IMG/VR virus record: IMGVR_UViG_3300017732_000015
Coordinates: 1-44,905 of that record
Origin: a virus
Reading direction: 5' to 3' (one strand)
Length of the DNA stretch: 44,905 nucleotides
The notes below the pieces were generated by a model. That model ran no database searches, was not told the origin of the DNA, and was given only the letters and a program-made list of their open reading frames with translations. Below are positions 8,849 to 44,596 of the stretch, one piece after another. A program made the translations under genes and the position numbers. How positions within the stretch are numbered: the first letter of the stretch is position 1; every line of letters starts with the position of its first letter.

Positions 8849-10492
8849 TTAGACTTTATCAATATCTGCTATTCTTACTAATCCGTAGAACTCTGAACGA
8901 ACCATTTTCTTAGCGTAACGAGTCATCACACCTTTACGTGGAGTAAAGTTGGTTGGGTCGTATACTAATGGTGTCATAATCATCGGTACGTAAGGAGCGT
9001 ACACCGCGCCAGTTTCTAGGAAGTTACTTCCTCTGAAACCAACAAGAATTACGTTCTCAAACTGGTATGGGTTTTTGTAAACAGTATATCTGTTATTCAA
9101 AAGACCAGCTTTTTGAACACCCATAGCGTACTGGTTAGCTGATGCATCGCCGTCAGATGAAGTTGCATATCCAGGAATTGATTCCAAGATAGTTGCAGTT
9201 TCAGGACTTACAACGATGAAGTTAGCTCCACCACGTAGGGTTTTCTGGTGAATTGCGTTGGAAACAGACTGTATCTTGTTACCAAGAGTCTGGAACCACT
9301 CACCTTTTGTGTATGCATTTGAGTTTGCAGAAGTTTCTTCAAACAGGTTGGTAGCTGAGTTAAACTCAAATCCAACTTTTGCAGAATAGTTTTCTGTCTT
9401 AGCAGATGCGTTAGTTCTTAACATATCTAAGATTTCTAAATCGATTTCCATTGATACGTACTCAGAAAGTAATGCAGTTAATTCTGCTTCAGCATCAACA
9501 CTATGATAAGCGTTAAGGTCTTGAGCAAGCTCAGGAGTCCAAACAGCTTTCAATTTACGTGTTTTTGCAACTATTGGAATAGAACGCATTTGAATATCAA
9601 TCTCTGGTATTCCTGCGTCTGATTCTGCGCCAGTACCACTTGCAGTTGCTTCAAAGTCACCTCTTGTTGCGTCAGTTGGTTGCTTATGATAATCAACAAC
9701 GACGTTACCAACAAGTGTTTGAGCTCTGTCTTTCTTAACGATAAATGAGATTTCAGTCTCAGCAGCGTTTAATTTAGTATGTGCTGGGAAGAACTCATCA
9801 AAGTTTGAACCAGAAATGTTAAATGCTCTTATACCTTCAGGATCATATCCACTCAATGCTGCAGTTGCAACATTAATCTTCATTAATCCATTGTCAGCAT
9901 CAGCACCAGTTGATACAGATGCGGATAGGTCTGGTTCAAAATCAACATCAGAAAATGTTACTGAGCCAGTTGTATAAGTACCATCTGATACAGATGTTCC
10001 TTTTGATTGAGCTGATGATGCATTGTCATTTGCTGAGTAAGCGAAACGACCTGCGCCATATAATCCAGCAGTTGGGTCGCCAGAACCTGAAGTAATACCG
10101 AATACATCGTTACCACTTGTAAATCCAGCCTGTGCACTTCCATACTTGAAATCAAGATAGAAGATAAGACCAGATGGTAGGTTCATTGGCTGAACAGAAA
10201 CAAACTCTTGTGCGGCTAATTCACCAAAGATTTTTCTGACCAATGGTAAAGCAACGCCTGACCACTGTTCTGAATCACTATTGGTTCCTGCTTGAGATGC
10301 TTCGTCGATTAACTGACGTGCTTGGTTCTCAAGTAGAACTGCCATACCGTGAGTTTTCTGCTCATCTTGGAGTCCTTCTAAAAGGCCGGTGGCTTCCCAC
10401 TTTTTTACTAAGCCTTTAGTTTCCTCCATGCGCTGACGAACAGGATTGTATCCGTCCATCAACTTTTCGATAGTGCCTAATTTATTTGACAT
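8849..10492 (-). CDS. 23: Major capsid protein (gp23-like)
   Basis: This protein has 547 residues, close to T4 gp23 (521), and is predicted to adopt the HK97 fold. The N-terminus is a helical propeptide (MSNKLGTIEKLMDGYNPVRQ onward) ending in LIDE|ASQAG at residues 64/65. This is a prohead-protease site of the T4 [L/I]-x-E type at almost the same place as in T4 gp23 (residue 65). Further gp23-like blocks are SGLIFYLDFKYG (residues about 104-115), VVAKTRKLKAVWTPELAQDL, and near the end TPRKGVMTRYAKKMV. GGAGAA precedes the ATG. It lies downstream of the scaffold gene and ahead of a strong terminator, as expected for the most highly expressed late gene. Confidence 0.95.
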   Translation of the reverse strand: MSNKLGTIEKLMDGYNPVRQRMEETKGLVKKWEATGLLEGLQDEQKTHGMAVLLENQARQLIDEASQAGTNSDSEQWSGVALPLVRKIFGELAAQEFVSVQPMNLPSGLIFYLDFKYGSAQAGFTSGNDVFGITSGSGDPTAGLYGAGRFAYSANDNASSAQSKGTSVSDGTYTTGSVTFSDVDFEPDLSASVSTGADADNGLMKINVATAALSGYDPEGIRAFNISGSNFDEFFPAHTKLNAAETEISFIVKKDRAQTLVGNVVVDYHKQPTDATRGDFEATASGTGAESDAGIPEIDIQMRSIPIVAKTRKLKAVWTPELAQDLNAYHSVDAEAELTALLSEYVSMEIDLEILDMLRTNASAKTENYSAKVGFEFNSATNLFEETSANSNAYTKGEWFQTLGNKIQSVSNAIHQKTLRGGANFIVVSPETATILESIPGYATSSDGDASANQYAMGVQKAGLLNNRYTVYKNPYQFENVILVGFRGSNFLETGAVYAPYVPMIMTPLVYDPTNFTPRKGVMTRYAKKMVRSEFYGLVRIADIDKV

Positions 10493-14444: not shown

Positions 14445-14926
14445 TATTCTTCTTCTTGTTTATCAGCTATCTTAATACTATCTTTTCTGTTTATGATTTC
14501 CATCAAATGTAGTTTTATAAAGTTTGTATCTCTTTCAAAGTCATCATTAATCATACCACCGATACGACCTAACTGATAAGAAACTATATTTACAATCTCC
14601 ACTCCATGGTCGATTGGGTCGTGGTCAATCTCTTCACCCTTAACGACTTGTTTTTCCATTTCGAATAGGTGGTCAAGTTGTTTAGCAGAACTAATAATTA
14701 AATCTTGTGCGTCGGTGTTATCGACATCTTTTACTAATCTTTCGTAAAGAATAACTGCTGAACGACATATATCAAAATGTTCTGTTTGATAATCTAAAAT
14801 TTTTATGTTTTCACCACCACCGAAATGTTCTGGTTCATCTTGTTCCAATCTTAGTGTTGGTAATGCTTCACCAAACTTACGACCAGTCCAATAATTTTCA
14901 TTCATTATATTTTTTAACTTAATCAT
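14444..14926 (-). CDS. Helical protein with MIKLK-type leader
   Basis: This 160-residue protein begins MIKLKNIMNE|NYWTGRKFGE; MNE would be the cleavage site. The mature part is acidic and mostly helical (around EHFDICRSAVILYERLVKDV and AQDLIISSAKQLDHLFEMEK) and ends in a run of Glu. It shares ATGA with the stop of the upstream gene (overlap of 4 bases). No catalytic motif was recognised. The row of genes with the same leader and different bodies suggests a set of packaged internal proteins. Confidence 0.6.
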   Translation of the reverse strand: MIKLKNIMNENYWTGRKFGEALPTLRLEQDEPEHFGGGENIKILDYQTEHFDICRSAVILYERLVKDVDNTDAQDLIISSAKQLDHLFEMEKQVVKGEEIDHDPIDHGVEIVNIVSYQLGRIGGMINDDFERDTNFIKLHLMEIINRKDSIKIADKQEEE

Positions 14927-15207
14927 TTTAGTTTCTTTCTAAGTTTAATCATCTCTCTCATAAATTTAGTAACTGTATCTTTATATGTCTTTGTTAATTG
15001 TTTAGCTAATTTTACGTTTTCAGGTCGTGCATCTCTTAAGAACACTTGCTCTAATGCAAACATTCTTTTACGAAGTTCACCCTCTCTTTTTACGATACGT
15101 TGAACTTCTTTATCAGCAGGTCTCTGTTCATCAGGCCCTTCTGTTATAGAGCAGCATCCTCCACCACATTCACATCCATCTTTCATTAACTCTTTTAACT
15201 TAATCAT
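14923..15207 (-). CDS. Small protein with Cys-rich MIKLK-type leader
   Basis: This 94-residue protein (start chosen at the ATG at 15207, which overlaps the upstream TAA as ATGATTAA) begins MIKLKELMKDGCECGGGCCS, then ITE|GPDEQR. The C-x-C-GGG-CC cluster lies inside the presumed propeptide, before the ITE|G site at residues 23/24. If cut there, the metal-binding or disulphide-forming part would be removed on maturation. The remainder is a charged helical body ending RKKLK. An in-frame GTG/ATG further upstream is possible but would run into the upstream gene. It is likely an internal head protein. Confidence 0.6.
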   Translation of the reverse strand: MIKLKELMKDGCECGGGCCSITEGPDEQRPADKEVQRIVKREGELRKRMFALEQVFLRDARPENVKLAKQLTKTYKDTVTKFMREMIKLRKKLK

Positions 15208-15484: not shown

Positions 15485-16102
15485 CTAACCTCTCATTATA
15501 TCGTTAATAATTGATTCTACTTTACAATATTCACCACAAGTTCTACCAGATGGTATTTCTTTATTTACCGACTCGTTTACAGGATACATAAAAGCTCCAT
15601 GTGTTGACGGATTGGATACAAAGTCAAAAGCGATTAATTCAAAGTCGGGTTGAACTTCTTGTGCTTCTGAACCATTCTCATTTACAGTCTCAACTGAACC
15701 CATACCCCTTGAGGATATACCTAACTTAATACCTGATTTAAATAATTCTTTTAAAATATTACCACTTGGTGTACCTAAAACCTCAACTTCACCCATAAGG
15801 TTGTCACCCTCAAAGTGCATCTTCTTTACATTGTGAGATACATTTTGTAGATTTACAACCGAAGACTCTGGATGGTCTAATTCACCCATAGCTCTTCTTT
15901 GGTCTATAAATTCTTCAGTATATTTTTTAGCTTCTCTCATCAATATATCTTTTGGGTATACTCTACCATTCTGATTTTTTGATTCAGCTCTTTGTAAAAC
16001 ACCTCTAACCACTAATTTACCATTGTTTTCTTTTATGGATTCATTAATCTGGTCTGGTTCTATTTCAAATGGTAGATAATCTACTATTAGTTGCTTATTC
16101 AC
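15485..16102 (-). CDS. 21: Prohead core protease (gp21-like)
   Basis: This 205-residue protein is close to T4 gp21 (212). It carries the family signature: a RAMGELDHPES block with the catalytic His (residues about 94-104), LMGEVEVLGTPSGNILKEL, then GIKLGISSRGMGS with the nucleophilic Ser, and LIAFDFVSNPSTHGA. This serine protease (U9/S80 type) matures T4 proheads by cutting scaffold, capsid protein and internal proteins after [L/I]-x-E. Its presence gives meaning to the many such sites in neighbouring proteins. It also contains INE|S and VNE|S that could be self-cleavage sites. It lies 11 bases after the preceding gene, in the conserved portal-protease-scaffold-capsid order. Confidence 0.93.
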   Translation of the reverse strand: MNKQLIVDYLPFEIEPDQINESIKENNGKLVVRGVLQRAESKNQNGRVYPKDILMREAKKYTEEFIDQRRAMGELDHPESSVVNLQNVSHNVKKMHFEGDNLMGEVEVLGTPSGNILKELFKSGIKLGISSRGMGSVETVNENGSEAQEVQPDFELIAFDFVSNPSTHGAFMYPVNESVNKEIPSGRTCGEYCKVESIINDIMRG

Positions 16103-21852: not shown

Positions 21853-24800
21853 CTAAAAATTTAATAATCCTAATATTTGATTAACAGGTGCAAAAGCGCC
21901 TGTAAACTTATATGTATTTCCTTTATATTTAAACACTATTCCCTCAGTAGGAACTATTGATGATAGTCCGCCAATCTTTTCTAACTTACTGAGTTGATGT
22001 CTAAGTGTTTCAATTTTTTTGATATCACCACCACTCTTTACTGTCTTTATCGCTTTTATTACATCTTTTCTTATTTTCTGTACTGCTTTGTCTGGCGATG
22101 CAACTAAATATCCACTAATGTTTTTTAGTATTTCTGCACCCACGTCAAAAAATAAAACTTCAAATGGTTTCATGTTTTGCTTTACATACTTTGCGTGGTC
22201 TGTTTTATCGAATGATAATGCCCAATCAAGAAACTTTTTATTGTCTATATCTTTTCTCATTGTTTGAACAGAATATGATTTATCAATAAATGCCCATCTT
22301 TTTGTTAAATTTACTAATATAGTATTAGGTATCTTATAACGATATTGTTTTGCAGCGTTAAAAATAAATTCTTCCCAAAATCTTTGATGATAAAGTGCTA
22401 ATGTATCATTATCTTTTAGGGCATATTGTTTTTTTAATTTATCTAACCTAGCTAAATAAGTTTTTTTCTTTGTACCAAAGTTTTGTGTTTTTGGTACTGA
22501 TAAGAATTGTGGTTTGCCTATTTTAAAATGCTTTTGAATATTTTGATTTACCTGTTTTATCATACCTGCTAACATACGAGCAGAATCTTTAGGTTGCCCT
22601 ATTGCTTTACCACTTTCATTGTACTCTAAAGTCCCATGAAAAATAATTTGTGATTTATCATAATCTATTACGTTAGCCGAAGCAGGATATATAACTTCTA
22701 AGTTCATCCATCTTTTACCATTACTAAAAACTTTTTCTTTTTGTGGGTCGGATAATTTACCTACTGCTTTACTTAGGTCTTTCATAGCGAAAACAAAAGC
22801 GTTTCTTATGTCACCTCTACCAGCGAATTTAGATGCTACACCAGCCGTATCCATCGCTGTTGCTCCAAAATTTTTAAGTTGTCCTTTGTTTCTAGCTGTA
22901 ACCAATTTCCCATTTACCCAAGAAACCATTAGGTTTTGACCATCAAGTTTCTCTGTAACATTATCTTCTCGGCTTAAATTACCACCGAGTCCATTAATAA
23001 CTATCTGTTTTAAATCTGAAAACTTAAGATTTTTATCATCAAAGGGATGATTCATATGTCCGTATGCTCCACCCTCAATGATTAACTTGACTTCTTCTTT
23101 TAAATCTAACTTATCAACTTCGGTATTAGCAACATTATCTTTACCAACACCACCAACAACTGGTGTTTCTACTTCGACACCTGTATATGATTTTCCGTCA
23201 GGTGTTATTCCCATCCACTTTATTAATTCATATCCAAGATTGCTTAATACCACATCGTTTATGTAAGCCTTATACGAGTCTATCGGACTATTAACACCAA
23301 ACCTTGAACCATAATCACCTGATTGGGTTTTACCATAAGCTACTGCTGGTACAGTTGAATAACTAAGTGTATAATCGTAATCAGGATTAATTGCATGTTT
23401 TGATAAAATATAATTTATCACTTCCCACCCTTGACCTGCGTACATATCATCCAACCATGATTTAGAATATTTTTTGTAATCTGAGAAACCACGATAAAAT
23501 GTAGGTGGCCCATCATCGGTTGGTGATAAAGCACTTGAAGAAGCTTCTTTTAATATTTTTGATATTTTATGACCTACCAAAAAAGCATCTATATTTTCAA
23601 ATAATTTTTTAAACTTATTTGTCATCATATTATAGATACCCTTGTCAAAGTATCCAAAAGCTTGTTTAAATAATTTTTCTCTATCTTTTTCATAATCTGG
23701 TGAACCAAGTAACTGTCTCATCACAGTTCCACTTATTTCCTTACCACCCACTTTAATAGATACGTGAGGAGCTGTGAGAATATAACCGTGTTCTTTATAT
23801 CCTAATATATTACCTCTGTTCTTATCATAATCTTTAAAATACTTTCCACCCTTTAACCTACCCGCGTCTTTAGCACCAAATATGTAGATAACAGCTGTTG
23901 TTTTCTCGTCATACTTTTTTAATACATTGTTAGCTACATAAGGTGACTTTTCTTGTATGATACGATTTTTTGGTATACCCATCTTTACCATATGACGAAC
24001 TTTTTCTTTAAAGTTCATAGGATGTCTTGGTGGTTGTTTTATATTTGATGTAGTGATGTAAGCATCATCTACTCTTGACTTCAACCAATCATAGGTTTTT
24101 TTATGATGAGGGCCAAATGGTTGAAATCTACCACCATAGATACCAACTACTTTTTTGATTTTAGTTCTGTCCTCTTTTATTTTTTCATAACCACTACCAT
24201 AAGGAACTGAAGTGTTCCCTTTCTTCTTCATCTTTTTTACCATTTTTCTACTTGGTGATGGGATTGTTCCGTCAAAACTAAAAGTCTCTGTTTTACCCGT
24301 ATCGGTTTTAAGAAAAGGGCCTCTTCTAAGTGTTTGAAATCTCACAGGTACTTCTTGACCAAATAATTTTCTTGGTGCTAAAATTCTTAGTGTAACCAAT
24401 TTTTTAGGATTATCAACTTTAATAGTTTCAAACTCTATCTCTTTATACTTTTTACCCTTATGTGTGAGATTCTTACCAGTAATGAATTTTTCTATCTTGT
24501 TACCTCTAACTGCAAAAGCTTCTGAAAGACCTTGCTGTTTTAATATTTGTTGTTTTTTAATCCAACTCTTTGCTATTTTATTTTTAATTGGTTGTTTTGT
24601 AAACTTACTAACGCCTTTTTTAACAAGTGAAGCAAACTTTTTCTGAGCTACATTTGGTTTTAAAAACTTAGAATTATCCACAATAAGAAAATTTGATTTA
24701 AATAAATTCTGAAACTTACCGAGATTAGCTTGAACACCTTTCCAACTCTTTTCTAATAAATCTGGTGGTAATATTCTATCTCGTTCTTGATTACGTTGTT

Positions 24801-25734
24801 GTGCTACATCGAGAGAGGTATTAACAAATACCATATAGGTATCGTAACCATCTTCTTGTAATTCTCTTTTCATCTTAGCTATCTTACCATAATCATGACC
24901 CGTTCCATCAATAATCATACCTAACTTACCATCTTGATACAACTTCATTCTTTGTTTAGTAAGTGATTTGGCATAATCTCTTAAACCACTCTGACCTTTA
25001 GATGTTAAATCTTTAAACAACTCATCTGGCATCTTATCTAAATCTGTACCGAATCCGTATTTGTTCAGAAGAAACTTTAACTCTTTATCTGAGTTTATCA
25101 TCTTCATACCACTCATAGAAATGTTTAATCGCTCAGGTATACCAAATAAATTTTTAGCTACATAAGTCTTACCACTACCTGGCCCACCAGCAAGAAATAC
25201 AGCTTTGAATATACCAGGATCGTTAACACCCTCGTTTATATTTTCTTCTTGTTTTAGTATTCTGAATGTTGTAACCTTTTTACCATTAATAGTTGGCATT
25301 CCGTGGTCATCTTTATCGATTGATTTGACTACAACCTTTTTATTTTTAAACCTACCAGTAAGAATAGTATCACCTATTTTTACAGGTATGTTAATATCCT
25401 CATTCTTCTTTTTAGTTTTCTTTTTCATCTGATTGATGTATTTACGATACACGGCGGCTTGTGACTTTTTACCCATCTCACGAGCACGTTGTTCCATAGC
25501 TACTGCAGCTTGTATCTTATGCGCGTGGGAACGACCACTCGACTTAATTTTACTTACCGACGCTTGCGCATCTTTTACGGTAGCAAACTTAAGACCCTTG
25601 ATGGTTCCTTTTGGGTTTTCATCCGTGTATAAATCTGAATGAGATTTGGAGCCACGATGTTGTCCTTTTTTTCTTGGGACTCTTGGTGCCTCGGTCAGTA
25701 TTGATTCTACTAACCATTTTGTAAGTTTATTCAT
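21853..25734 (-). CDS. Multi-enzyme polyprotein: leader, kinase, nucleotidylyltransferase, unknown domain, ligase
   Basis: The protein has 1293 residues. The leader MNKLTKWLVE|SILTE|AP has two prohead-protease-type sites. Residues 176-355 form a P-loop kinase of zeta-toxin/polynucleotide-kinase type: GGPGSGKT (183-190), IIDGTG (274-279) and QRNQERDR (313-320). Residues about 528-690 form a cytidylyltransferase-like domain: GIYGGRFQPFGPHH (531-544, the HxGH-type motif) and ISGTVMR (667-673, the ISSTxxR-type motif), compatible with NMN- or related adenylyltransferases. Residues about 737-850 are an unrecognised domain. Residues 888-1293 are a covalent nucleotidyltransferase (RNA/DNA ligase): EKLDGQN with Lys929, LEVIYP (1012-1017), EGIVFKYKG (1264-1272) and KFTG. 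Sites INE168|G, LSE405|A, LKE730|A and IIE887|G fall between domains. It lies ahead of terminase in the head operon. Substrates are unknown. Confidence 0.85.
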   Translation of the reverse strand: MNKLTKWLVESILTEAPRVPRKKGQHRGSKSHSDLYTDENPKGTIKGLKFATVKDAQASVSKIKSSGRSHAHKIQAAVAMEQRAREMGKKSQAAVYRKYINQMKKKTKKKNEDINIPVKIGDTILTGRFKNKKVVVKSIDKDDHGMPTINGKKVTTFRILKQEENINEGVNDPGIFKAVFLAGGPGSGKTYVAKNLFGIPERLNISMSGMKMINSDKELKFLLNKYGFGTDLDKMPDELFKDLTSKGQSGLRDYAKSLTKQRMKLYQDGKLGMIIDGTGHDYGKIAKMKRELQEDGYDTYMVFVNTSLDVAQQRNQERDRILPPDLLEKSWKGVQANLGKFQNLFKSNFLIVDNSKFLKPNVAQKKFASLVKKGVSKFTKQPIKNKIAKSWIKKQQILKQQGLSEAFAVRGNKIEKFITGKNLTHKGKKYKEIEFETIKVDNPKKLVTLRILAPRKLFGQEVPVRFQTLRRGPFLKTDTGKTETFSFDGTIPSPSRKMVKKMKKKGNTSVPYGSGYEKIKEDRTKIKKVVGIYGGRFQPFGPHHKKTYDWLKSRVDDAYITTSNIKQPPRHPMNFKEKVRHMVKMGIPKNRIIQEKSPYVANNVLKKYDEKTTAVIYIFGAKDAGRLKGGKYFKDYDKNRGNILGYKEHGYILTAPHVSIKVGGKEISGTVMRQLLGSPDYEKDREKLFKQAFGYFDKGIYNMMTNKFKKLFENIDAFLVGHKISKILKEASSSALSPTDDGPPTFYRGFSDYKKYSKSWLDDMYAGQGWEVINYILSKHAINPDYDYTLSYSTVPAVAYGKTQSGDYGSRFGVNSPIDSYKAYINDVVLSNLGYELIKWMGITPDGKSYTGVEVETPVVGGVGKDNVANTEVDKLDLKEEVKLIIEGGAYGHMNHPFDDKNLKFSDLKQIVINGLGGNLSREDNVTEKLDGQNLMVSWVNGKLVTARNKGQLKNFGATAMDTAGVASKFAGRGDIRNAFVFAMKDLSKAVGKLSDPQKEKVFSNGKRWMNLEVIYPASANVIDYDKSQIIFHGTLEYNESGKAIGQPKDSARMLAGMIKQVNQNIQKHFKIGKPQFLSVPKTQNFGTKKKTYLARLDKLKKQYALKDNDTLALYHQRFWEEFIFNAAKQYRYKIPNTILVNLTKRWAFIDKSYSVQTMRKDIDNKKFLDWALSFDKTDHAKYVKQNMKPFEVLFFDVGAEILKNISGYLVASPDKAVQKIRKDVIKAIKTVKSGGDIKKIETLRHQLSKLEKIGGLSSIVPTEGIVFKYKGNTYKFTGAFAPVNQILGLLNF

Positions 25735-39930: not shown

Positions 39931-40803
39931 TTACAATTTATTTTTCAACTTAGCATACTCACGTCTACCCCACTTTTCGGCAATCTCCTCAAACTTGTTA
40001 TCATCGTGAAAATCACCACCTTTTTGGACGGCAATCTCACCTGCCATGGAGTATGCTTTTTCGTATTTTTTTGCACCCATCTTTTTTCTATCAAGAGCAT
40101 GTTTGATTTCATGTAATACTGTAATTAAAAATTGTTTGACTGTAGGATATGATGGTCTTAAATTTATCGTATCGGTAACCCAATTATAATCCGCCATGTC
40201 TTTACCACGTGCAAATTTTATTTTAGATTTGAGTCCATATTTTTTAACTAATCTTTCTGCTGTATCCAAGTAGTCTATTCTTTCTAATAGTAAATAACCT
40301 GTAGTGTCTGTGATTGATTTTTTAAGCGATTTTAGTTTAGATGGCCACTCTTCTGGTTTGATAAAACCTGTTGCACCCTTTAGTCCTTTTATATTTGCAG
40401 TTGTAGAGGCTTCATATAAATTATCTAATATTCCTAATACTCTATCGTCAAATGGTTGTGGAAGATTCATTGTGTTATAATAACCCCAAGCCATATGTTC
40501 ATGATTTATATGTGCATTTATTTTTTTATCACCCTTGCATATAAAAACGTGAAAGTCTCCACCATTGTTCTTCTTAGCAACATGGGATAATTCAATATCA
40601 CGATTTAGTATAATTTGGGTTTCTTCAGTAAACTCTCTATGAGCTCCTTCTTCAGGTGTTTCATCAATATGTCGATGACCCTTTGGGATACCCCATCTAC
40701 CACTCGTACTTTGAACACACAATAACTCGTCATTCACAACGTAGGCAATACCTGCTGCGTGTTTGGAATCTTTTTGTTCGTTTATTTGTGCTAATTTAAT
40801 CAT
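39931..40803 (-). CDS. Nudix hydrolase fused to HExxH metallopeptidase, with capsid-targeting-like leader
   Basis: The start at 40803 is chosen because ATGATTAA overlaps the upstream stop; a GTG four codons earlier is less likely. The 290-residue protein begins MIKLAQINE|QKDS, a leader with an INE site. The Nudix box is G-x5-E-x7-REFTEETQ (residues about 42-64; the final Gly of the consensus is Gln). A second site, LYE|A (129-132), separates it from a peptidase-like half with VLHEIKHALD (HEIKH, 231-235) and a downstream EIAEKW that may hold the third ligand. Nudix enzymes cleave X-linked nucleoside diphosphates (ADP-ribose, Ap4A, RNA caps). A packaged, maturation-cut two-enzyme protein is the inference. 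Confidence 0.8.
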   Translation of the reverse strand: MIKLAQINEQKDSKHAAGIAYVVNDELLCVQSTSGRWGIPKGHRHIDETPEEGAHREFTEETQIILNRDIELSHVAKKNNGGDFHVFICKGDKKINAHINHEHMAWGYYNTMNLPQPFDDRVLGILDNLYEASTTANIKGLKGATGFIKPEEWPSKLKSLKKSITDTTGYLLLERIDYLDTAERLVKKYGLKSKIKFARGKDMADYNWVTDTINLRPSYPTVKQFLITVLHEIKHALDRKKMGAKKYEKAYSMAGEIAVQKGGDFHDDNKFEEIAEKWGRREYAKLKNKL

Positions 40804-41017
40804 TACAATGCTCACAAGTACAGGTACTTAAATCACTAGGTAACTCTGTCCTTGTGATGTCTTCTCCGTTACTATATTTGAAAGTCATATTACTTGAGTT
40901 AGCCCATTTAGGTTTAACAATAATATCTTCTATTGTTAAATCTTCAATGTGACATTTACAAGTGTTACAAACTTTTGATATTTGTTGACCACTGCTAGTG
41001 AATCTAACTTTTATCAT
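40796..41017 (-). CDS. Small Cys-rich, probably zinc-binding protein
   Basis: This 73-residue protein (start at 41017, MIKVRFTSSGQQISK; GGTAAA upstream and the stop of the prior gene 1 base away) has VCNTCKCHIEDL and, at the end, STCTCEHCND, giving two C-x2-C pairs with extra Cys that could form one or two zinc sites. It overlaps the Nudix/peptidase gene by 8 bases. No family was recognised; a rubredoxin- or zinc-ribbon-like fold is possible. Confidence 0.6.
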   Translation of the reverse strand: MIKVRFTSSGQQISKVCNTCKCHIEDLTIEDIIVKPKWANSSNMTFKYSNGEDITRTELPSDLSTCTCEHCND

Positions 41018-43657: not shown

Positions 43658-44596
43658 TTAACCCTTGTGAATTTTACCTTTTCGTTCTTTGAACCATTTT
43701 CTAAACTGAGCAGGTGAACCGATAGTAATTGGTTTGTTACCACTTGCTGTTGATAATAATTTTTCTATTTCAACTTTAGCCAATACACTATTATCCAATA
43801 CTCTTTGCATTACAAATATATCTATTATCTTTGTATCATAAACAAGAAGTTCATTCCACCAAGCAGTTCTTTTATTATGTTTAGAATTAATCAAACTCTT
43901 CTTGAATAGTTTTTTATTTTTAAGTAAAGTTTTGTTTGCTACATCAATATAATCTTTTACATATTTGTTAATGACTGGCCCTTGTGCTTTTTTAACTTGC
44001 TCTTTATAGTCATCATAACTAATCCTATTAGGGTCATCACTTGGTAACATCCATCTGTCGTGATATTCTCTCTCTATATCGGTCATTTTATCACTAATAC
44101 TATCATAATCAAGTTTAGAAGATTTTAAAGCATTTGTCCATATCATACTATCCTTATCAAACACATGCCAAGCCTTTACCCATCTACGACCTTGTTTATC
44201 AGGTGTTGTATCAAAATCCATAGACCTTTTTGCTAATAAATGTCCCTCTACATAACAAATAATACCACCCATACCTGTTTGAACACCACGACCTTTAGCT
44301 AATGATTCATCTTCGTGAGTTGCTGTAAATGTAGATATAGTTTTTTTTCTATTGAGAACATATTTAAGTTGTCGTATTCCATCTGGTCCTGTAATGTGAA
44401 ATGATTTTACAGGTATTTTTTTACCAAGAGCTTTCTCCACAACCGATGGTGTTAGAGGAATCACATCTCTTTGACGAACCCAATTCAATACGGATTTTGT
44501 GTGAGCGGGATACCACTTATTATCTATCCAACTAGGCCCAGCTTGTTTAGATGGTGCATAAGTGGATTCCATTAATAAATCTTTAAGTTTAATCAT
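43658..44596 (-). CDS. Leader-bearing 312-aa protein, possible injected effector
   Basis: The protein begins MIKLKDLLME|STYAPSKQ, the same leader type as the head-operon proteins about 30 kb away, with an LME|S site. The mature part has VKSFHITGPDGIRQLKYVLN, then KKTISTFTATHEDE, GGIICYVEGHLLAKRSMDFD and GRRWVKAWHVFD, followed by helical parts. An early His, a [S/T]-rich strand and a later Glu loosely recall ADP-ribosyltransferases, as in T4 Alt, which is also packaged and cut, but I cannot assign the fold. It starts within the stop of the upstream CsgG-like gene (ATGA). Unknown function; packaging is inferred. Confidence 0.6.
   Translation of the reverse strand: MIKLKDLLMESTYAPSKQAGPSWIDNKWYPAHTKSVLNWVRQRDVIPLTPSVVEKALGKKIPVKSFHITGPDGIRQLKYVLNRKKTISTFTATHEDESLAKGRGVQTGMGGIICYVEGHLLAKRSMDFDTTPDKQGRRWVKAWHVFDKDSMIWTNALKSSKLDYDSISDKMTDIEREYHDRWMLPSDDPNRISYDDYKEQVKKAQGPVINKYVKDYIDVANKTLLKNKKLFKKSLINSKHNKRTAWWNELLVYDTKIIDIFVMQRVLDNSVLAKVEIEKLLSTASGNKPITIGSPAQFRKWFKERKGKIHKG

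Follow-up and report, generated by a model that had tools for sequence, protein, structure and literature searches.

The gene considered here encodes a modular protein of 1293 amino acids and lies in the T4-like head operon of the IMG/VR virus record IMGVR_UViG_3300017732_000015, whose 44,905 nucleotides (44.9 kb) were analyzed in full and are called the window below. An earlier note on this DNA, made by reading the sequence, had described the gene as a probable packaged polyprotein cut by the prohead protease at its domain borders. The ends of the open reading frame (ORF) and its length were borne out, with the specification that it is read on the minus strand, from an ATG at 25734 to a stop at 21853; all modules described below share this strand.

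The chain opens with the leader MNKLTKWLVE↓SILTE↓ (residues 1-15, 25690..25734; arrows mark candidate cleavage points), which resembles a capsid-targeting sequence, carries sites at E10 and E15, and belongs to an M[IN]KL type common to other genes of the window, with similar leaders in relatives. It is followed by a basic module, BAS (residues 16-112, 25399..25689), ending in KNE112↓D, and by a small KOW-like module (residues 113-168, 25231..25398; weak Pfam KOW match, 0.028), ending in INE168↓G, both of which are movable among relatives. BAS is found there after the leader, after the kinase or after the KOW-like module, and is 78% identical to part of the cyanophage P-TIM68 head-operon protein AIR93449. 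The next modules are a polynucleotide-kinase/zeta-like kinase (residues 169-405, 24520..25230, Pfam PF06414 and PF13671) ending in LSE405↓A, the movable FAVRG module (residues 406-485, 24280..24519) and the short, movable SPSRK module (residues 486-521, 24172..24279) ending in IKE521↓D. An NMNAT/cytidylyltransferase-like enzyme (residues 522-713, 23596..24171), recognized by profile comparison with PDB, ends in LFE713↓N, and the linker IDAFLVGHKISKILKE730↓ (residues 714-730, 23545..23595) brings an [LI]xE triplet to the next border. The following region (residues 731-887, 23074..23544) comprises a domain without assigned family and a linker ending in LIIE887↓G; Pfam and PHROG searches with residues 731-880 returned no match, and an AlphaFold 2 (AF2) model gave no confident fold for them. 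The chain closes with a nucleotidyltransferase bearing ligase motifs (residues 888-1293, 21856..23073). A Pfam search of the whole chain for an embedded peptidase domain found none.

Candidate Cleavage Sites and Module Reshuffling

All sites listed in the earlier note occur in the chain, and two border sites absent from it, IKE521↓D before the NMNAT-like enzyme and LFE713↓N, were added. The chain contains 13 [LI]xE triplets against a shuffle mean of 7.6 (p = 0.033), and in six the next residue is A, G or S, against a mean of 1.5 (p = 0.0036). These raw counts are modest evidence, and it is conservation and reshuffling that carry the case.

Scanning IMG/VR yielded 498 relatives, and 80 of them were retained for comparison. 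Among them the order of modules differs, insertions occur and some modules are separate genes, while the borders are kept; in HTVC008M, for example, the KOW-like module, the kinase and the cytidylyltransferase are adjoining genes. BAS stands behind the leader in the window (SILTE↓APRVPRKKG) and behind the kinase in relative L010 (QQGLSE↓APRVPRKKG), and the same QQGLSE joint continues as ↓AFAVRGN in the window. Only the C-terminal order of NMNAT-like enzyme, 731-887 domain and ligase is almost constant. A second kind of polyprotein, found in L144 and L167, joins a leader, a kinase, a Pol-beta-type nucleotidyltransferase (weak match) and a cytidylyltransferase with LxE between them, and that of L144 additionally includes a PAP2 phosphatase. 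Relatives' polyproteins also contain a CCA-adding/poly(A)-polymerase module (PF01743, 4e-29 and 6e-30).

When reshuffled modules are compared at their 173 distinct junctions, 147 have glutamate exactly before the module, with a background Glu frequency of 5.2%. Because the sequences are related and the borders were set from the window's sites, the 173 junctions are not independent trials, and the force of this evidence is the variety of upstream neighbors. At the kinase border 28 of 29 distinct junctions have Glu, and all 28 have L, I, V, M or F at P3 and G at P1'. Glu directly precedes the FAVRG module in 9 of 11 distinct junctions, [LI]xE marks the border after the 714-730 linker in 35 of 44, and, in a second and partly overlapping set of loci, Glu precedes the GG of the ligase in 39 of 40 readable distinct contexts. 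Across the junctions the P1 Glu is retained while adjacent linker residues and upstream contexts vary. As a control, [LI]xE triplets inside the kinase are kept less often among homologues (E201 in 2 of 21, E294 in 5 of 24 and E328 in 13 of 24). Such findings agree with the claim that the sites lie at domain borders, and the alignment of homologues that had been proposed as a check showed the linker sites conserved there, whatever module stands upstream.

Structure prediction, the other proposed check, pointed the same way. An AF2 model of residues 112-1293 (mean predicted local distance difference test score, pLDDT, 58; predicted template modeling score, pTM, 0.31) placed E168, E405, E521, E713, E730, E880 and E887 in segments with pLDDT<50, which are low-confidence linkers of the model. 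Of the interior triplets, E294, E328 and E595 are outside such segments and E201 is inside one.

An insert of about 280 residues was seen in relatives L031 (2164-3000), L039, L040, L044 and L052, with Cys as the first residue after an [IV]DE site (IDE↓CIAVAKKFG, VDE↓CIAIAKKFG). It looked by eye like an Ntn-hydrolase, an identity that Pfam and PDB searches did not support and that we do not adopt; our hunch from this likeness is that a cut at [IV]DE could expose a catalytic Cys. The polyprotein of LR756508 had no relatives in a scan of its own.

Single-Gene Relatives and Their Leaders

Several modules exist on their own behind a leader that ends at the same border. The kinase of HTVC008M starts MIPFILKE↓GLYDPGIFKA and that of the Melnitz phages MKTFAELQE↓GVYDPNIFKA. 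With the Melnitz kinase as query, 80 loci with 27 distinct N-termini were obtained, and 25 of these N-termini consist of a leader of 8-16 residues ending in [LI]xE↓G directly at the kinase. These 25 short leaders resemble those of T4 internal proteins. The remaining two N-termini are longer, one of them being an adenylate kinase, and show the same ..LNE↓GVYDPGIFKA joint. The ligase-type protein is likewise a single gene in a jumbo phage, where it begins MKFLKSYEEFLNENLILE↓GGSYGH. KVP40.0065 and the T4-like kinase matches beyond the Klebsiella and Aeromonas phages were set aside, either for excessive divergence or for want of a clean border.

Two loci deserve separate mention. At L170:2464-3678 one chain runs from an adenylate kinase through a leader-like LREFREYLNE↓G into the kinase, and at L179:1-1842 (Tenacibaculum phage PTm1) a relative of the kinase has an intein-like insertion at its Walker A motif.

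Putative Protease Site or Internal Start at the Ligase Border

The ligase border is the one at which the site is frequently lost. Its Glu is replaced by Met in 27 relatives, and all 27 carry AAGGAG followed by 9 nucleotides and ATG at that codon; AGGAG is present at this border in none of 121 sequences with a residue other than Met. In six M-type ORFs the ligase ATG is, by the pattern used, the sole in-frame start preceded by a Shine-Dalgarno sequence, and the same pattern found no such internal start in the window ORF or in three Glu-type ORFs. A tree of 75 ligases requires at least eight changes between the Glu and Met states on well-supported branches, although the bootstrap of this tree had not fully converged. 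We read the Glu site and the internal start as two interchangeable ways of giving the ligase its own N-terminus, with translation presumably initiating at the Met codon.

Identity of the Enzymes

The kinase, described in the earlier note as a zeta/PNK-type enzyme, was confirmed as such by Pfam (Zeta_toxin 6e-8, AAA_33 8e-8). Its Walker A motif AGGPGSGK is invariant and it has a P-loop kinase fold, for which the best Foldseek match in the AF2 model was Clostridium thermocellum Pnkp (CthPnkp, 4gp6, 1.5e-5), followed by the zeta toxin 1gvn (1.1e-4) and T4 Pnk (1ly1, 2.5e-3). Zeta-, PSTK- or nucleotide-kinase-like substrates may be alternatives to nucleic-acid 5' ends.

For the second enzyme, the proposed cytidylyltransferase likeness fell below the Pfam threshold (CTP_transf_like, 0.0015) but found backing in profile matches to an archaeal NMNAT (1f9a, 4.5e-5) and to NadM (2qjo, 3e-4), the latter also matched by Foldseek on the AF2 model (3.2e-3). 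Its invariant columns, GR.QP and SGT..R, fit the NMNAT motifs GRFQP..H and SxTxxR.

In the C-terminal domain K929xDG, R948, E1013, E1264 and K1276 are invariant in 34 sequences, a set that we take to be the one expected for a ligase-type nucleotidyltransferase. A profile search against PDB sequences found no relative and Foldseek with the model no PDB match below 0.001; the weak matches were T4 Rnl2 (Foldseek E 1.8), the RM378 RNA ligase (0.04) and Pfam RNA_ligase (0.012, below cut-off). The RNA/DNA-ligase core claimed earlier therefore stands on its motifs, and on these rests our label ligase, since no family or fold match rose above threshold. Homology to DUF6267, a KWDG protein beside the HTVC008M modules, is not claimed (hhalign probability 0.4%).

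Neighboring Genes of the Head Operon

The head operon also encodes the presumed cutter, a gp21-type prohead protease (15485..16102, minus strand; PF03420, Peptidase_S77, 4e-28; phrog_207, 2e-54), in line with the gp21-like protease that the earlier note had placed near the gene. The major capsid protein (8849..10492, minus strand; phrog_138, 2.5e-75) was likewise assigned by profile, whereas portal, terminase and scaffold were assigned from sequence and position. The capsid protein carries IDE64↓A at residue 64, near the position where the 65-residue propeptide of T4 gp23 ends, and this is likely a reference substrate site for the protease.

Six genes of the window begin with a leader of the M[IN]KL type whose residue 10 is E or D. 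At 14923-15207 the leader is MIKLKELMKD↓G, with Asp rather than Glu at residue 10. A 312-residue protein (43658..44596, minus strand) begins MIKLKDLLME↓S, and a module that resembles it by eye is embedded in polyproteins of relatives; at L062:2-5203 and L072:7187-11956 it occurs in polyproteins that also contain the PF01743 module. The Nudix hydrolase encoded at 39931-40815 has MIKLAQINE↓Q as its leader, matches a metallopeptidase weakly (MPTase-PolyVal, 0.0023) and is possibly a second, smaller packaged polyprotein.

Discussion

Very likely, judging from the sequence comparisons, the 1293-residue gene encodes a packaged polyprotein that is cut by the prohead protease into enzymes injected with the phage DNA. 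The N-terminal leader would carry the chain into the prohead core, where the gp21-type protease would cleave after [L/I]xE in the leader and between the modules. Once released, the kinase, the NMNAT-like and ligase-like enzymes and the small modules would remain in the head and enter the cell with the DNA, where kinase and ligase would probably mend RNA ends broken by host defense and the NMNAT-like enzyme would perhaps do NAD (nicotinamide adenine dinucleotide) or nucleotide work. For this protein we infer cutting, packaging, injection and function alike; the polyprotein reading is well supported because modules are reshuffled at the sites, single genes bear leaders, the ligase site switches to a start, and distant relatives occur in virions.

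T4 gp21 cleaves after L/I-x-E, and ten leader residues are enough for entry of IPIII into the T4 head (PMC9026906). The T4 internal proteins and Alt share with the present chain a short leader ending in L/I-x-E and an S77 prohead protease, and their cargo acts at infection, as would that of the chain; they differ in having one cargo protein per gene, from which the leader is removed (in Alt a C-terminal piece as well), whereas here several enzymes stand in a row with sites between them. In cyanophages, mass spectrometry of S-SM1 virions detected the cytidylyltransferase cluster T4-GC190 (PMC3037559), and virions of other cyanophages contain proteins that are NMNAT-like or cytidylyltransferases (PMC10665884). 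The T4-GC190 member of S-ShM2 and its relatives have T4-like leaders ending in [LI]xE↓A (for instance MKKFSTFISE↓A and MKSFTSFFTE↓A), but each is a single-enzyme gene.

Several observations weigh against this reading. These virion enzymes are only distantly similar to the present NMNAT-like module, whose best profile match (E 1.9e-5 at nominal database size) is to a Melnitz protein, cyanophage proteins being weaker; they therefore back the meaning of the leader more than direct homology. The interior triplet IQE595 is conserved in 24 of 26 NMNAT-like sequences and would need to be spared by the protease, the border between BAS and the KOW-like module has in the window a non-canonical KNE↓D, Glu is absent from -1 in 26 of the 173 junctions, and V, M or F frequently takes the place of L or I at P3. 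In addition, the AF2 model is weak overall, so the low confidence of the linkers is mild evidence only.

Among other explanations, the one that survives best, though we consider it unlikely, is an effector packaged and kept whole, which loses only its leader and whose modules act jointly after injection. Known polyvalent proteins comprise 2-15 domains and the virion RNA polymerase of N4 goes into the particle unprocessed (PMC5512222), and the near-constant C-terminal order could mean physical cooperation; a chain kept whole does not readily account for a border Glu retained whatever its neighbor, for the kinase and ligase as single genes, or for a ligase site that is swapped for an internal start and not simply lost. 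Very improbable, in our judgement, is that the enzymes are late products which work unpackaged in the infected cell, the leader having another role. In M-type relatives, internal initiation would additionally yield leaderless ligase within the cell, but the leader resembles a T4 capsid-targeting sequence in length and site and is common to other small head-operon genes, the gene itself lies in the head operon, and the leader-bearing cyanophage enzymes are virion proteins. Least credible of all are [LI]xE linkers as recombination scars or flexible joints left uncut in the virion: shuffling itself could spread a common joint sequence among related, non-independent junctions, but P1 Glu is retained where neighboring residues and contexts differ, varied stand-alone leaders end in one motif, and the switch to a start codon recurs at the same residue.

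With regard to function, kinase and ligase point, by a narrow preference, to RNA end repair, which we favor because CCA-adding, Pol-beta, phosphatase and kinase modules keep them company. CthPnkp, T4 Pnk, CCA-adding enzymes and RNA ligases are ordinary cellular or infected-cell enzymes; the present kinase fold is nearest to CthPnkp, the CCA-adding and Pol-beta modules of relatives match such a repair kit, and the ligase is alike in its motifs, on which its tentative class rests. Phage RNA repair is a recognized counter to tRNA-cutting effectors (PMC7824862). Restoration of NAD as the function of the set is a distinctly less likely option: NadR combines a kinase with an NMNAT, and such a pair could rebuild NAD (PMC9503650). 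Both roles together, or another one, appear slightly less likely still. These weights are judgements, not results, and the NAD-related role and the pre-empting of tRNA-cutting defenses, both put forward in the earlier note, are kept here as what the enzymes might do.

There are precedents both for gp21 cutting of capsid-targeted proteins and for multi-domain effectors that are injected, and judged against the open-access literature it is the arrangement as a reshufflable packaged polyprotein that is new. The polyvalent proteins of phages, too, are large and have many domains, are presumed to be injected and have been proposed to be processed into parts, but their proposed cutter is an embedded peptidase (a domain that not every polyvalent protein has), whereas the present sites fit a separate prohead protease (PMC5512222). 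In the heads of phiKZ and SPN3US, likewise, a gp21 relative cleaves numerous packaged proteins behind Glu, and the literature searched gave no reshuffled enzyme string with sites between for them. The open-access papers searched, among which most subscription papers and preprints are missing, describe no reshufflable enzyme string with a prohead protease as its cutter.

More generally, the prohead protease of T4-like marine phages probably serves as a general maturation enzyme for reshufflable injected polyproteins, the last enzyme being freed by a site or by a start. If this is true, a widespread lineage of marine viruses ships with its genome a ready enzyme kit, active before viral gene expression and assembled from exchangeable parts bounded by protease sites, and the T4 internal-protein idea, so far one of single proteins, widens to take in polyproteins. 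Injected effectors of uncultured phages could then be sought by their leaders and [L/I]xE joints, and an old question, which cargo T4-like phages inject and for what purpose, would become directly testable.

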